Shown: in pieces, positions 23,845 to 57,683 of the stretch | Numbering within the stretch: the stretch's first letter is position 1 | Layout: each line of letters starts with the position of its first letter | NCBI GenBank assembly: GCA_030057915.1 | Contig: JASGUC010000054.1 | Coordinates: 1-58,301, forward strand | From: Pseudomonadota bacterium | GTDB lineage: Bacteria > Desulfobacterota > Syntrophia > Syntrophales > UBA8958 | Direction: 5' to 3' | DNA: 58,301 bases | Made by a program: the position numbers and the translations under genes | Notes under the pieces: model-generated | Told to the model about the DNA's origin: nothing | Database searches by the model: none | What the model saw: the letters and a program-made list of their open reading frames with translations, nothing else

Positions 23845-25968
23845 ATGATCAACAGGTGGATAGCGTTCATAGTCGTGGTTGCGTGTCTGCTGGCCCTGGC
23901 GCCGCCGGGAGTGGCCGCGCCGGCGGGGACGAGGATTTGGACCGTTCAGGTGGCCTTCCTTTCGGAGCGTCATAACGCGGAGAAAATGGTCGAGGAATTG
24001 AAACGGCGTGAAGTGAAAGGCGTTTGGGTGCAAAGGGAGGGAAGCTCCTACGCAATCAGGATCGGGAGGCATAAGAATAAAAGGGAGGCCCTTCTTGCCC
24101 TGGGGAAGATCAGGAAGGCATATCCGCAAGCCGTCATGAAAGAGGTCGCCGGGGCGACCGCCAAGGTCGTTGCGGAAACAAAGCGGACGAAAGCGGTCAG
24201 GGCGGAGATGAAGGCGCGTCAAAATGTTGGCGTCAAGACCCCCGAGAAGGAAACGCCGGCGGCGAATCCTGGAAAAACCCCGGCAGCCGGCGTCGCTGCC
24301 GTGGATGAGTCTCCCGCGTCGATAGCGAATCCCCTGTTTGCCGAGGCCATGAAAAGATACGAAAGGGGCGATTTCCCCGGCGCCGCCGACCTGTTCCAGC
24401 AGGTCATGCGTCAAATACCCGCCGATCCAGTCGCCTACGAACGGTCTATACGCAGGGCGGCGGACTGTTACCTGTCCATGGGTGGCAAGGGCGCCAACCA
24501 GTATCTCTTTTCCGCGGTCGATCACTACAAGCGCATCCTCCAGCATTATCCCGACCCGCGCACGGGCAACGATTTGGTCTATTTAAACCTGGCTAAGGGA
24601 TACGAGGGCCTGAAGTTCTATTACGAGTCGGCCGACGCCTTGAAGAAGCTCCTGTCCCACTATCCGGAATCCGTCCACGCCCAGGAGGCCCTGTTCCGTT
24701 TGGCGGAGGCCCATCTGGCGGTGAAGCGCCACGAGCAGGGAGCGCAGGTCCTTAGGCAATATCTGGATAAATACCGACAAGGGGTCCATGCCAAAACCGC
24801 CGCTCTGCGCCTGGCGGAAGTCTATATGCTTCTGAACGATCTCGACCGGGCTCTGGCGCTCTATGAGGGGATCGCCCAGGGAATGAACGACCTGTCCGAT
24901 ATGCCGAAAGAAGCGCTGTATTCAATGGCGGACGCCGCTTATCGCAAGGGCAGGCATGAAGAGACGATCCGGTTCGTCTCCGTCTTCCTGAGCCTCTACC
25001 CCCAGGACGAGAAGGCGGGCAGAGGGCTGTATCTTCTTGGCAACAGTTTTCACAATCTGGGGCGGTTTCCCACGGCCATGAAGATATACAACGAGGTCTT
25101 GGAAAGATATGCCGCCTCGCCGGAGGCGCGGGAAAGCATCCTTATGACGGCGAACCTTGGCGTCCGGCATCCTGGCCACCGCCAGCCCGCCTACCCGTCC
25201 ATCGAGAATCATTACGGAGATCCCCTGGGGGCTTACAATCTCCTCCTGTCCCAGCAACCCGAAAAAGACCTGGAGGAGAGGGTCCTTTTTGCCAAATCCG
25301 AGGCCTTGTTCAAAAATGGACGCTACCTCGATGCCGTTGCCAATTTCCTCCTGCTACAGGATAAATATCCCGACGGCAGGGAATCGCCGCCCGTGAAGCA
25401 ACAACTGAAGGCGGCGGCGAAGAAGCTTATCGACGACTTACACCCCCGGCGGGATTATGTGGCCATCGCCTCCCTGTATTGTCGAACCTTCGGGCGCGTT
25501 GTCTTTGCACGGGAGGACGCGGACTCGCTCCTGAAGATCGTGGATGCGCTAAACAAGATGTCTCTTCATGACGAGGCCCTGCGGGTATCGAATTATGTGC
25601 GGTCCCTGTCCGCCGATCCCCAATGGCAGTCCTGGATTGCCAAGACCATGGCGCCCTCGGCGCAATCCCCCGGAAATGCCGATGGGGGGGGACCCTCCGG
25701 TGAAACGGGCTCGGCGCCGGCTGGGGGTTCGCGGGCGTCGATGGAACTGATGGAGAAATCCCTGGCCGACGCCGGCGCCGACGACGCTCGGCGTCGCTGG
25801 CTGCTCTTCGAGATTGGGCGCCGCCATATGGAGTCAAGGGAGTCGGCGGCGGCGGAAAAGAGTTTTTTGCAAATCAAGGACGGGAGCCCGGATCCTTTTT
25901 GGACGAAACTGAGCGATTATGCCCTCCAGGAATCCCGATGGTCGGAAAGATACGGAGACTTTTACTGA
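23845..25968 (+). CDS. Exported SPOR and TPR repeat protein
   Basis: A 707-residue protein. A signal peptide or anchor (WIAFIVVVACLLALAPPGVA) is followed by a SPOR-like domain at about 30-105 (IWTVQVAFLSERHNAEKMVE, then YAIRIGRHKNKREALLALG), which would bind denuded peptidoglycan. After a Lys/Ala/Pro-rich linker come many TPR helices from about 155 on, for example FAEAMKRYERGDFPGAADLF and LFRLAEAHLAVKRHEQGAQV. A Ser/Gly/Pro spacer near 610-640 precedes a final helical part. It is probably a periplasmic scaffold for the motor or cell wall. The start at 23845 is fixed by the sigma-54 promoter and the signal peptide. It heads an operon with a kinase and an NtrC-type regulator. Confidence 0.8.
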   Translation: MINRWIAFIVVVACLLALAPPGVAAPAGTRIWTVQVAFLSERHNAEKMVEELKRREVKGVWVQREGSSYAIRIGRHKNKREALLALGKIRKAYPQAVMKEVAGATAKVVAETKRTKAVRAEMKARQNVGVKTPEKETPAANPGKTPAAGVAAVDESPASIANPLFAEAMKRYERGDFPGAADLFQQVMRQIPADPVAYERSIRRAADCYLSMGGKGANQYLFSAVDHYKRILQHYPDPRTGNDLVYLNLAKGYEGLKFYYESADALKKLLSHYPESVHAQEALFRLAEAHLAVKRHEQGAQVLRQYLDKYRQGVHAKTAALRLAEVYMLLNDLDRALALYEGIAQGMNDLSDMPKEALYSMADAAYRKGRHEETIRFVSVFLSLYPQDEKAGRGLYLLGNSFHNLGRFPTAMKIYNEVLERYAASPEARESILMTANLGVRHPGHRQPAYPSIENHYGDPLGAYNLLLSQQPEKDLEERVLFAKSEALFKNGRYLDAVANFLLLQDKYPDGRESPPVKQQLKAAAKKLIDDLHPRRDYVAIASLYCRTFGRVVFAREDADSLLKIVDALNKMSLHDEALRVSNYVRSLSADPQWQSWIAKTMAPSAQSPGNADGGGPSGETGSAPAGGSRASMELMEKSLADAGADDARRRWLLFEIGRRHMESRESAAAEKSFLQIKDGSPDPFWTKLSDYALQESRWSERYGDFY

Positions 25969-25969
25969 T

Positions 25970-26085
25970 GGAGGTCCGAGGTCCAATGTCCAAGGTCCGA
26001 GGTCCAATGTCATTTCGAGGAGCGCGAGCCTACCCAGATGTCATTTCTAGGTAGCGAAGCGACTGAGAAATCCTAATCTTTGAAA
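25970..26085 (+). repeat. Dispersed repeat, family B
   Basis: It begins with iterations of GGTCCAATGTC/AAGGTCCGA (25975-26010), continues with GTCATTTCGAGGAGCG, and ends in a 33-bp block (26053-26085; AGCGAAGCGACTGAGAAATC at its start) that is identical to 47120-47152. It lies between the TPR gene and the kinase gene and is followed at once by a run of 11 G. Confidence 0.8.
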
Positions 26086-35596: not shown

Positions 35597-38479
35597 ATGA
35601 ATCTGCCCAGCCTAATTGAAACGAAAGCCCAGCCGAACATCGACGTCGCCAAGTCGTTCGGTTCCTTCCTCGCCCAAGGCTCGGCTCGGCCCTGGTCGCT
35701 GGGTCGTCCGGAGGGCGGCGCGATGCTGCCGGCCGGGGCCGATTTTTCCCAGGTGATGGAGGGGATTTACGGCGAATCGACGGCCGCCGCTGGCAAGGCT
35801 TTCCCTGGCGAGACAGGCGCGGAGTCCCCCAGGGTTGCCCTTGGGGAGGCGGGACGACCGGGTGCGACGACAATGCGGAGGGCAGAGGACATGCCGACGA
35901 CGGACGAAGCGACGCCATTAGCAGTTGCGCCCCTGGCGTCATTCCTTTCCGCCGACCTGGCGACTCCTTCCCCGGAAGCCCCGGCCACCACCCTTTACGA
36001 AAAAGAACTGCCGCTTCGCAAGGTCCGACCGGGTCTTGCGGGCGCCGAGGTTAGAATGGATCGCATGGAGGCCCAGCCTCCTCGGAAAGGGGCCGCCCGT
36101 GAGGTCGCGTTTGACCGGGGCGTGGAGACGGCTGTCCGAGGTGAGGCGGCTGCAAGCGCGTCGATCCGTGCGGGGCGGGGCCTCCGGGTTGAGGACATGG
36201 GTCTTGCGGGCGCCGGGGTCCGGACGCGGATGGAAGGTTCGGCGTCATCCCCCGTGGTTGGGGCGGCGGACGAAGCGACGGCGGAAAGCCCCTCGCCTGT
36301 TGTCCAGATGTCCCAGGGTCGGGCCGGCGTCCGGGTGGGCGCTGCCGTTGTGGAAGACCGGGCTGGCAAGCAGGGGCTCTTGGGTGATTCCGGGCGGGAC
36401 GGCCTCCAGGGCCCAACGGTTGTCGGGGCGAAGGGCGTCGATCCGTCGGGGTCGAGCGCAGGCGCATCTTCTCCCGCACGTCGTCCTGAGGGCGTTCAGG
36501 TTGCCTATCCCGGCGCGTCCGCTCCGGAATCTTCCGAGGCGCGTAGTCCCGAGGGCGGGCATACCGCCTATTCCGAGGATATTGCCGACAACGATGCCCG
36601 CGGGCGGCTTGATGTCCCGCTCCGTAAGGGGTTGGGAGACCTCGCCGAGGTTAGAATGGATCGCATGGAGGTCCAGCCTCCCCAGAAAGGGGCCGCCCGT
36701 GAGGTCGCGTTTGACCGGGGCGTGGAGACGGCTGTCCGAGGCGAGGCGGCTGCAAACGAGTCGATCCGTGCGGGGCGAAACATCCGGGTTGAGGACATGG
36801 GTCTTGCGGGAGCCGGGGTCCGGACGCGGATGGAAGGTTCGGCGTCATCCCCCGTGGTTGGGGCGGCGGACGAAGCGGCGGCGGAAAGCCCCTCGCCTGT
36901 TGTCCAGATGTCCCAGGGTCGGGCCGGCGTCCGGGTGGGTGCCGCCGTTGTGGAAGACCGGACTGGCAAGCAGGGACTGTTGGGTGATTCCGGGCGGGAT
37001 GGCCTCCAGGGCTCAACGGTTGTCGGGGCGAAGGGCGTCGATCCTTCGGGGTCGAGCGCAGGCGCATCTTCTTCCGCACGTCGCCCTGAGGGTGGTCAGG
37101 TTGCCTATCCCGGCGCGTCCGCTCCGGAATCTTCCGAGGCGCGTCGCCCCGAGGGCGGGCATACCGCCTATTCCGAGGATATTGACGGCAACGACGCCCG
37201 CGGGCGGCTTGAGGTCCCGCTCCGTAAGAGGCCGGGAGACCTCGCCGAGGTTAGAATGGATCGTATGGAGGCCCAGCCTCCTCGGAAAGGGGCCGCCCGT
37301 GAGGTCGCATTTGACCGGGACGTGGAGACGGCTGTCCGAGGCGAATCGGCTGTCCGAGGCGAAGCGGCTGCAAACGAGTCGATCCGTGCGGGGCGGGGCC
37401 TCCGGGTTGAGGACATGGGTCTTGCGGGCGCCGGGGTTCGGATGCGGATGGAAGGTTCGGCGTCATCCCCCGTGGTTGGGGCGGCGGACGAAGCGGTGGT
37501 GGAAAGCCCCTCGCCTGTTGTCCAGATGTCCCAGGGTCGGGCCGGCGTCCGGGTGGGTGCCGCCGTAGTGGAAGACCGGACTGGCAAGCAGGGACTGTTG
37601 GGTGATTCTGGGCGGGGCGGCCTCCAGGGCTCAACGGCTGTCGGGGCGAAGGGCGTCGATCCGTCGGGGTCGAGCGCAGGCGCATCTTCTTCCGTGCGTC
37701 GTCCTGAGGGCGGTCAGGTTGCCTATCCCGGCGCGTCCGCTCCGGAATCTTCCGAGACGCGTCGTCCCGAGGGCGGGCATACCACCTATTCCGAGGATAT
37801 TGACGGCAACGACGCCCGCGGACGGCTCGATGTCCCGCTCCGTAAGGGGCCGGGGGGCCTCGCCGAGGTTAGAATGGATCGCATGGAGGCCCGTCCCCTG
37901 GAGGCGCGAAAGGCCTCAAGAATCAACAATGCCGCGACGACCAATTCGTTTGCCGCCGGGGACGTCCTTTCCGCCCGCCTTGAACGCCTCGTGAGTTCGG
38001 AGGCAACCGAAGGCGCGGTTCCTTATCGGTCCGTTCTCGAGCAAATCCGGGAAGGCATGACCGAAGGTTTCAAGGATGGCGGCCGGGTGCGCATAACCCT
38101 GCATCCCGAGTCGCTGGGGCGGGTGGACATGGACATCGTCGTCCGCCAGGACCGGGTGGACCTGATCATGAGGGTGGATAACAACCAGGTGCATCAACTT
38201 CTGAGCAGTCGCATCGAGGATCTGAAGGCGACCCTTCAGGGCCAGGGCTGGCAGGTAAACGGAGTGGACGTGATGTTGCAGAAAGAAAACAACCTGCATG
38301 ACGGCAACAACTTCGCCGGCATGTTCTCCTGGCGGGAAAGGATGAATCGGGAACGAAGCGGCGACGGCATGGCGGGGGGAAGAAATGGAAATCGCTCTGC
38401 TCGGCCCATGGACGGCCTCGTGGCGGCCGCGGAGAAGACCGCGGGCGGAATGATAAGCGGATTGAGCATTTTTGCCTAA
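35597..38479 (+). CDS. fliK: Flagellar hook-length control protein FliK with three 200-residue repeats
   Basis: A 960-residue FliK, about twice the usual length. Residues 1-150 are a disordered-looking, Ala/Pro-rich N-terminus. Residues about 150-765 are three near-identical 200-residue repeats and the start of a fourth, each beginning near EVRMDRMEAQPP. Residues about 830-905 are the Flg_hook C-terminal domain, with RITLHPESLGRVDMDIV and QGWQVNGVDVMLQ, which contacts FlhB to switch export specificity. In FliK the N-terminal part acts as a molecular ruler, so extra length could lengthen the hook. It starts the hook operon and flgD follows 20 bases on. Confidence 0.9.
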   Translation: MNLPSLIETKAQPNIDVAKSFGSFLAQGSARPWSLGRPEGGAMLPAGADFSQVMEGIYGESTAAAGKAFPGETGAESPRVALGEAGRPGATTMRRAEDMPTTDEATPLAVAPLASFLSADLATPSPEAPATTLYEKELPLRKVRPGLAGAEVRMDRMEAQPPRKGAAREVAFDRGVETAVRGEAAASASIRAGRGLRVEDMGLAGAGVRTRMEGSASSPVVGAADEATAESPSPVVQMSQGRAGVRVGAAVVEDRAGKQGLLGDSGRDGLQGPTVVGAKGVDPSGSSAGASSPARRPEGVQVAYPGASAPESSEARSPEGGHTAYSEDIADNDARGRLDVPLRKGLGDLAEVRMDRMEVQPPQKGAAREVAFDRGVETAVRGEAAANESIRAGRNIRVEDMGLAGAGVRTRMEGSASSPVVGAADEAAAESPSPVVQMSQGRAGVRVGAAVVEDRTGKQGLLGDSGRDGLQGSTVVGAKGVDPSGSSAGASSSARRPEGGQVAYPGASAPESSEARRPEGGHTAYSEDIDGNDARGRLEVPLRKRPGDLAEVRMDRMEAQPPRKGAAREVAFDRDVETAVRGESAVRGEAAANESIRAGRGLRVEDMGLAGAGVRMRMEGSASSPVVGAADEAVVESPSPVVQMSQGRAGVRVGAAVVEDRTGKQGLLGDSGRGGLQGSTAVGAKGVDPSGSSAGASSSVRRPEGGQVAYPGASAPESSETRRPEGGHTTYSEDIDGNDARGRLDVPLRKGPGGLAEVRMDRMEARPLEARKASRINNAATTNSFAAGDVLSARLERLVSSEATEGAVPYRSVLEQIREGMTEGFKDGGRVRITLHPESLGRVDMDIVVRQDRVDLIMRVDNNQVHQLLSSRIEDLKATLQGQGWQVNGVDVMLQKENNLHDGNNFAGMFSWRERMNRERSGDGMAGGRNGNRSARPMDGLVAAAEKTAGGMISGLSIFA
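36047..37898 (+). repeat. In-frame 600-bp tandem repeat array inside fliK
   Basis: The marker TTAGAATGGATCG recurs at 36051, 36651, 37251 and 37869, giving periods of exactly 600, 600 and 618 bases. Three complete units and about 30 bases of a fourth are present. Units differ at scattered single bases only. The 618-base unit contains an extra 18-bp copy of CTGTCCGAGGCGAAxCGG near 37331-37366. All periods are multiples of three, so the fliK frame is kept. Confidence 0.95.
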
Positions 38480-55760: not shown

Positions 55761-56234
55761 GTGGACATCCAATCCCTGCTTTTGGTGCAATTGGCCGTCG
55801 ATATTCTGATCTGCCTGTTGCTCGTGCTGCTTTTATGGCGGTTTGGCAGCCGCGGGGAAAAGGCCCCCGCGGACCATTCGGGGGTGGACATGGAGGAGCT
55901 GAAGAAATTTATGGACGAATCCCGGAGGTTATCCGCGGAATTCGTCGTCGCCCTCGAAGAGGGACGAAAAAACTTGAAATCCCTCGCCTTCTCCCTCGAC
56001 GAGCGGGAAAGACGGCTGCAAGATCTCCTCGCCAGGGCCGAAAATATACCGAATCCGGAATCTCGGGAAGGGAAGGCCGATCCCGGGTCGAAGGGCGATC
56101 CCTATGGCGAGGTCCTGAGGATGATCGACGAGGGCCTCACCGAGCGGGAGGTCGCGGATAGGTTGGGCGTCCCCACGGGGGAGATTGAGCTAATCAAGAG
56201 TCTTGGCCGCCGCGGAAATCGGGAACCGTCATGA
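55761..56234 (+). CDS. Membrane-anchored helical protein with C-terminal HTH-like motif
   Basis: A 157-residue protein resembling the DUF2802/DUF6115 type found next to flagellar genes. An N-terminal membrane helix (LVQLAVDILICLLLVLLLW) is followed by a long charged helix (about 45-95) and a C-terminal helix-turn-helix-like motif, VLRMIDEGLTEREVADRLGV. The last part probably contacts protein rather than DNA, given the anchor. GTG start at 55761. It overlaps the FliK-like gene by 4 bases. Confidence 0.7.
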   Translation: MDIQSLLLVQLAVDILICLLLVLLLWRFGSRGEKAPADHSGVDMEELKKFMDESRRLSAEFVVALEEGRKNLKSLAFSLDERERRLQDLLARAENIPNPESREGKADPGSKGDPYGEVLRMIDEGLTEREVADRLGVPTGEIELIKSLGRRGNREPS

Positions 56235-57385
56235 TTTCAACCTTCGGCCCCGTAGCGCCCACCGGACAAATCGGTTTGACGACGGCGGAGATAACGCCCG
56301 TTGCCCGGACGTTGTCGTTCACTCCCGGGGAGGTTTTGAAGGGATTCGTCCTCCAGGCCGGAACGAACAACCGGGTCCTGCTGCAAATCGGCGACACCAG
56401 GATCCTCGCCGACACCCAGACACCGCTGAAAGCGGGGGAACAACTGGTCTTAAGGGTTGAGGAAACGGGGCCCAAAACGATCCTGCAGATCCTTGGGGAC
56501 AGTCATCGGGAAACGCAAAAAATCAATCAGTACCTCATCTTGAGCAGGTCCCAGCCTGAGTCTGCCAGCGAGTTGTTCCTCGCCCTGAGGCAGAAACTCG
56601 ACGCGGCCGCCATTTCGGCGGCCTCGGGGGGCTCGATAGGGAAGGACGCGCAAAAAATCGCCCGCCTGCTGGATTCCCTCGTGTTTTCACCCCAGACCAT
56701 GCACAACGCCGGCTTTGTAAAGGATTACATTCAGGGATTGGGGCTGCTGCTGGAACACGGCCTCTTTCGCGTCCTGGATGGCAAGGCCCGCCTCGCCGAG
56801 GCCAAGGACCGCGAGGGCGTGAAGGGAGGGCTGTTGAAACTGACGGCCCTTCTGGAGGAGCTGACCGGCCGTTCCGGGGCGGCATCGAGGGAACAAATGG
56901 AAAACTTAAGCGGTCTGTTGAGGCAATTCCAAGGTTCCGTTACGGCCATAGAAATCCAGCAGGTGCTCAATGTCCTGGCCCAAGAGGAAGGACGCCCATA
57001 TTTCCTCTCCATCCCCATGCAGTTCCCCGACGGCATCCGCTTCCAGGATCTCTATATCGAAAGGGGCGACCGACGGGCGGGAGATGCCGTCGGGAACGTT
57101 TCTCATCGCTTCACCCTTTTTTTGGATCTCGATATCCTGGGGGAACTGATGGCGGAGGTCCAATTGACGGGCGATAAGGTGCGTTGCCGCCTCAAGTGCC
57201 GGGAAGAGACGACACGACTTCTGATCTCATCGCAGCTCCCGGAGCTGAGGGACAGCCTGGAGGGCGCCGGACTGAAGGTCGAGGAGGCCTCCTGCCACCT
57301 GGATGCCCAATTGACGCAGTTGCGGGAGGAATACCGGAGGGAACACACGATCGACAACCGGGAGGCCTTGAGCTTATATGCCTAA
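56231..57385 (+). CDS. Second FliK-like hook-length control protein
   Basis: A 384-residue protein. The N-terminal part (SFTPGEVLKGFVLQAG, NRVLLQIGDTRILADT) is a beta domain, the middle is helical, and the C-terminal part (HRFTLFLDLDILGELMAEVQ, CREETTRLLISSQLPELRDS) resembles the Flg_hook domain of FliK. Its normal length contrasts with the repeat-expanded FliK at 35597. It overlaps the FlhB C-domain gene by 8 bases, so a FliK/FlhB-like pair is encoded together. Confidence 0.75.
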   Translation: MISTFGPVAPTGQIGLTTAEITPVARTLSFTPGEVLKGFVLQAGTNNRVLLQIGDTRILADTQTPLKAGEQLVLRVEETGPKTILQILGDSHRETQKINQYLILSRSQPESASELFLALRQKLDAAAISAASGGSIGKDAQKIARLLDSLVFSPQTMHNAGFVKDYIQGLGLLLEHGLFRVLDGKARLAEAKDREGVKGGLLKLTALLEELTGRSGAASREQMENLSGLLRQFQGSVTAIEIQQVLNVLAQEEGRPYFLSIPMQFPDGIRFQDLYIERGDRRAGDAVGNVSHRFTLFLDLDILGELMAEVQLTGDKVRCRLKCREETTRLLISSQLPELRDSLEGAGLKVEEASCHLDAQLTQLREEYRREHTIDNREALSLYA

Positions 57386-57683
57386 GGACAATACGCAACG
57401 GCCCCCATCGCCCCCCCTCGCCGCCGCCCTGCGGTACGATGCGAAGAAGGATCGGGCGCCCCGGATGATCGCCAAGGGTCGGGGCTTCATAGCGGAAAAG
57501 ATCATCGAACTGGCGCGCAAAAACGACATCCCGATCAAGGCCGACCCGCATCTGGCGCAGATTCTCTACCGCCTCGAACTGGACGAGGAGATCCCCAACG
57601 AACTTTACCGGGCAATCGCCGAGATTTTGGCGTTCGTCTATAAGCTCAATGAAAAACGTCGTCAGGAATCGTCAAACGGTTGA
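57378..57683 (+). CDS. Stand-alone FlhB C-terminal domain protein (FlhX-like)
   Basis: A 101-residue protein matching the cytoplasmic C-terminal part of FlhB (FlhB-CC). It has AAALRYDAKKDRAPRMIAKG, IAEKIIELARKNDIPIKAD and QILYRLELDEEIPNELYRAI, which align with FlhB residues after NPTH. The NPTH cleavage motif and membrane helices are absent, so the protein mimics the cleaved fragment. FlhX proteins can partly replace the FlhB C-terminal domain. It is coupled to the second FliK-like gene. Confidence 0.85.
   Translation: MPKDNTQRPPSPPLAAALRYDAKKDRAPRMIAKGRGFIAEKIIELARKNDIPIKADPHLAQILYRLELDEEIPNELYRAIAEILAFVYKLNEKRRQESSNG

Follow-up and report, generated by a model that had tools for sequence, protein, structure and literature searches.

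A 58,301-nt stretch of DNA from a bacterium of the Desulfobacterota (contig JASGUC010000054.1, analyzed as a whole and referred to here as the window) encodes a flagellar hook-length control protein, FliK, in which three long tandem repeats lie in frame upstream of the C-terminal switch domain. We consider it likely that the apparently disordered ruler and linker of a genuine FliK were expanded here by in-frame tandem duplication, probably with a longer hook or a delayed switch as the outcome. What is new is that in-frame duplications, most likely independent and confined to one part of the protein, recur in FliK across the phylum; no description of FliK repeats was found in the open-access literature.

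The 960-aa reading frame is a genuine FliK in a flagellar gene cluster. Residues 828-898 match the Flg_hook profile PF02120 with 55.7 bits, against a cut-off of 29.8. The flgD gene, followed by flgE, lies directly downstream, and genes of the fliF/fliG/fliH/fliI type, read from ORF translations, lie upstream; a fliK gene adjoining flgD-flgE is the usual arrangement of a hook-ruler locus. Three features by which FliK is recognized, namely the Flg_hook (T3S4) domain, the flagellar locus, and a variable, extended upstream region, were found.

Three tandem units were confirmed within this frame at positions 36047-37864, followed by the first 28 bp of a fourth (Table 1). The start-to-start periods of 600, 600, and 618 bp given in the initial annotation proved exact, and the third unit is longer because it contains an 18-bp inner tandem duplication. 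The description of the units as near-identical, with few differing bases, was slightly strong, as pairs of units differ at 33-38 of 600 bases (5.5-6.3%; pairwise identities of 94.5, 94.2, and 93.7%). The best 90-nt self-match of fliK (89/90), compared with a maximum of 53/90 among 200 codon-shuffled versions of the gene, excludes chance. A mobile or dispersed repeat was also ruled out, since the unit was found nowhere else in the genome. A diverged unit end immediately precedes the first unit, so that a related motif bounds the array on both sides. In a relative (L002/L020, genome G002), FliK carries a single similar stretch, VRKDNGNVRMDKADFME, just before the C-terminal domain.

Table 1. Positions of the fliK gene, its repeat units, and the second FliK-like locus in the window.
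Feature	Coordinates	Strand	Basis
fliK, flagellar hook-length control protein, 960 aa	35597..38479	+	ORF; PF02120; adjoins flgD-flgE on upstream side
Diverged copy of unit end at upstream junction, PLRKVRPGLAGA (compare PLRKGPGGLA)	36014..36046	+	Sequence comparison
Repeat unit 1 (U1), 600 bp / 200 aa	36047..36646	+	Sequence self-comparison
Repeat unit 2 (U2), 600 bp / 200 aa	36647..37246	+	Sequence self-comparison
Repeat unit 3 (U3), 618 bp / 206 aa	37247..37864	+	Sequence self-comparison
18-bp tandem duplication within U3	37329..37370	+	TRF, period 18, 2.3 copies
Beginning of a fourth unit, cut off after 28 bp, 96% identity	37865..37892	+	Sequence comparison
Flg_hook (T3S4) switch domain of FliK, without repeats	38075..38290	+	PF02120 match
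FliK-like second Flg_hook protein of 384 aa, without internal repeat	56231..57385	+	PF02120, 44.4 bits
FlhB C-terminal-domain homologue, stand-alone, beside the second FliK-like gene	57378..57683	+	PF01312, 86.5 bits; TIGR00789 match below its cut-off

The repeats are coding, weakly constrained, and not very recent. A base-by-base alignment of the units, in which synonymous and nonsynonymous changes were counted, gave dS values of 0.093-0.118 and dN/dS ratios of 0.34-0.48 in the FliK frame. Long ORFs also overlap the array in another forward frame and on the reverse strand; coding in another frame was rejected, as dN/dS between U1 and U2 rose from 0.47 in the FliK frame to 1.06 in the +1 frame, and a stop codon interrupts the +2 frame. 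Sites at which one copy differs from the other two number 18, 15, and 20 in the three copies, a star-like pattern which suggests that both duplications occurred at about the same time, or that the copies were homogenized once and then left alone. With a dS of about 0.1 and private changes spread evenly over the three copies, the array appears old enough to have diverged without homogenization, and the earlier description of the expansion as recent holds only in a relative sense.

As had been proposed, the repeats enlarge, in frame, the region of FliK upstream of the switch domain. Main FliK frames of the order have a median length of 582 aa (n = 43, SD 101, CV 17%, range 462-977); the 960-aa protein was described as the longest in this set, whose upper range is 977 aa, and with one unit only it would have an ordinary length of 554 aa, near the median. 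The repeat region looks disordered. An AlphaFold2 model, based on a shallow alignment of two sequences and hence weak evidence, contains no secondary structure in the repeats or before residue 810 (pLDDT ~23-38), which agrees with their Gly + Pro content of 21%, and places the expected strand-helix fold solely at residues 810-894 (pLDDT ~43-62). Both observations support the initial annotation in that the repeat does not resemble a folded domain. Its Glu/Arg/Ala-rich label was correct for Ala and Arg but not for Glu, which makes up just 7.5-8.5% of residues; the composition is Ala/Gly/Arg/Val/Ser-rich.

To place the array in context, FliK genes from 46 genomes of the order and from 60 more of the phylum (106 genes, the latter 60 picked by rank of domain score, a possible source of slight bias) were surveyed, a repeat being scored when at least 65 of 90 bases were identical at a lag of at least 45 nt. 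Strong in-frame internal repeats, the mark of a YscP-like repeat ruler and represented by the three units in the window, were present in 16 of the 106 genes (10/46 in the order and 6/60 in the phylum sample). Each of the 16 lags is divisible by 3, each of the repeats stops short of the C-terminal switch domain, and the best-match periods lie between 66 and 627 nt. Arrays were clear in, among others, L139 (117 bp, ~4-5 copies), L175 (90 bp, ~5-6 copies), and L146 (321 bp, ~3 copies), with copies calculated as array length divided by period. In the phylum sample, FliK length correlated with the self-match score (rho 0.49, p 6e-5). No homology was detectable between the repeat units of different genomes (best E 0.03), which argues against common ancestry and makes independent origins most likely. 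Among other ORFs in the flagellar clusters of 20 relatives and the window, none of 434 had strong repeats, nor did any of the 88 that encode 400 aa or more (for FliK against these 88, Fisher p 7e-5, genome relatedness ignored). A control drawn from the genome itself (335 kb plus the window) counts against the preferred reading, as 9 of 320 sampled ORFs also passed the threshold, some of them probably spurious, the others including an hsdS-like gene.

Repetitive sequence of other kinds was also noted. The FliK protein L083, from a different genome of the order, has several stretches of the VRSQKS / VRGQRSE type, which look like a captured and translated short intergenic tandem repeat in the ruler region. 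The FliK proteins L024, L025, and L029, from the same genus, have a middle part with degenerate repeats of ~30 residues (MKNQLVMALEGKGIPADxxxGILKExDQ) that are apparently helical, unlike the Gly/Pro-rich repeat in the window. The longest FliK proteins in the phylum sample, L133 and L140 (>1200 aa), have no strong DNA-level repeat at the threshold used. In the window itself, an intergenic region (25960-26075) contains a tandem 21-bp repeat, AGGTCCGAGGTCCAATGTCCA, and an adjoining stretch in which ATGTCATTTC... occurs twice; it looks like a dispersed intergenic element.

The functional reading of the FliK repeats draws on two characterized rulers. Salmonella FliK (405 aa) has a like C-terminal Flg_hook domain (Salmonella 2RRL was found by profile, with an E of 0.0047) preceded by a variable region; however, the window protein is far longer, its three 200-aa tandem units have no described counterpart in Salmonella FliK, and its cluster encodes a second FliK-like protein. 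In Salmonella, residues 1-207 form the ruler, to which the flexible linker of residues 208-267 also belongs, and residues 268-405 bring about the switch by binding FlhB (PMC6972891). Variants of 363-785 aa (FliK363-FliK785) yielded hooks of 42-135 nm, corresponding to 0.2 nm per residue (PMC6126814). When 14 pseudorevertants of a Salmonella fliK deletion mutant were isolated, all suppressors were found to be an in-frame tandem duplication of 100 residues that improved switching (PMC6972891), indicating that tandem duplication inside fliK arises readily. These spontaneously selected duplications and the engineered length series resemble the window FliK in changing length, in frame, upstream of or at the switch domain (PMC6126814, PMC6972891), but they are laboratory alleles, whereas the repeats described here are natural, larger, and diverged. 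The second parallel is Yersinia YscP, a type III ruler whose length changes naturally with the number of its internal repeats: in Y. enterocolitica, YscP differs in the number of 14-, 25-, and 46-aa motifs, with a linear correlation between YscP size and the length of the needle (PMC3469391). YscP measures the injectisome needle rather than the hook, its units are much shorter, and its repeat number varies within one species, whereas the variation in FliK was seen between species only.

On this basis, we infer that unequal recombination gave rise to two duplications of a 600-bp segment flanked by a short homologous motif (PLRK..LAEVRMDRME), which would have taken FliK from ~554 to 960 aa and left the C-terminal switch domain alone. 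The related motif on both sides of the array fits recombination between short similar stretches. If FliK is secreted, as is presumed, the extra residues would either allow more hook growth ahead of contact between the C-terminal domain and FlhB or delay the switch. The added residues sit where Salmonella FliK measures the hook, so that a longer hook or a later switch is probable, and an effect on hook length is plausible by analogy with both Salmonella FliK and Yersinia YscP. Applied to 960 aa, the Salmonella slope predicts a hook of ~166 nm, which is a rough guide only, as the slope was obtained with helical inserts; the unit is Gly/Pro-rich and looks non-helical, and 0.2 nm per residue may therefore not apply. 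Needle length in Yersinia depends on the helical content of YscP, according to the title of a 2009 paper by Wagner et al. that PMC3469391 cites.

It is possible, if doubtful, that the expansion was neutral, with an unconstrained, disordered FliK spacer tolerating functionless duplications, and the hook being set elsewhere, by the second FliK-like protein or by the export kinetics of FlgE. The middle of FliK is unconserved within the genus: good conservation with the relative L020 was confined to the C-terminal part, and the unit had no detectable match in the FliK of G002. The dN/dS ratios of the repeats are fairly high, yet they are still below 1. A second Flg_hook protein of nearly constant length (median 387 aa, CV 3%, n = 39) is encoded by most genomes of the order that have FliK, and in the window it adjoins the FlhB C-terminal homologue. 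It might take part in, or assume, the control of length or of the switch, and given its constancy one may ask which of the two proteins measures the hook. The position beside flgD-flgE, the usual hook-ruler locus, favors the long FliK as the length setter. Length changes in the same region of Salmonella FliK altered the hook (PMC6126814, PMC6972891), which likewise argues against functionless repeats.

That the array is a contingency locus, in which rapid copy-number change by recombination would vary hook length between cells or strains, is unlikely. Tandem 600-bp units with exact shared runs of up to 66 nt can recombine, and YscP varies in this manner within one species (PMC3469391). However, a divergence of ~6% between copies speaks against frequent copy-number turnover, and its even distribution among the three is not what frequent gain, loss, and homogenization would leave; a runs test on the odd-one-out sites, performed for gene conversion or mosaic clustering, was not significant (P 0.09). 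An assembly artefact is very improbable even though the genome (2.85 Mb) is in 64 contigs and the named relatives in the genus are metagenome-assembled, because each copy has 15-20 differences of its own, the frame is kept throughout, the longest exact repeat of 66 nt is below common read lengths and should be resolved by ordinary short reads, and other genomes have equivalent arrays, among them one that was assembled as a single contig (L175, G179); a further identical copy may have been collapsed in the assembled array.

In-frame duplication within FliK, the reading we prefer for the window, has counterparts across the phylum, where about one in seven of the surveyed FliK genes carries unrelated in-frame duplications in the same part of the protein. 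This recurrence suggests a general route for the evolution of hook length or export timing. More speculatively, FliK may be a recurrent site of tandem duplication that makes hook length readily evolvable, while the second FliK-like protein of constant length and its FlhB C-terminal partner keep the switch constant. The lengthening of FliK achieved in the laboratory seems to have been paralleled in nature more than a dozen independent times in one phylum. The resulting natural series of FliK lengths, from ~460 to >1200 residues, is one against which hook length could be measured, and it would offer a test of whether hook length is selected or drifts.
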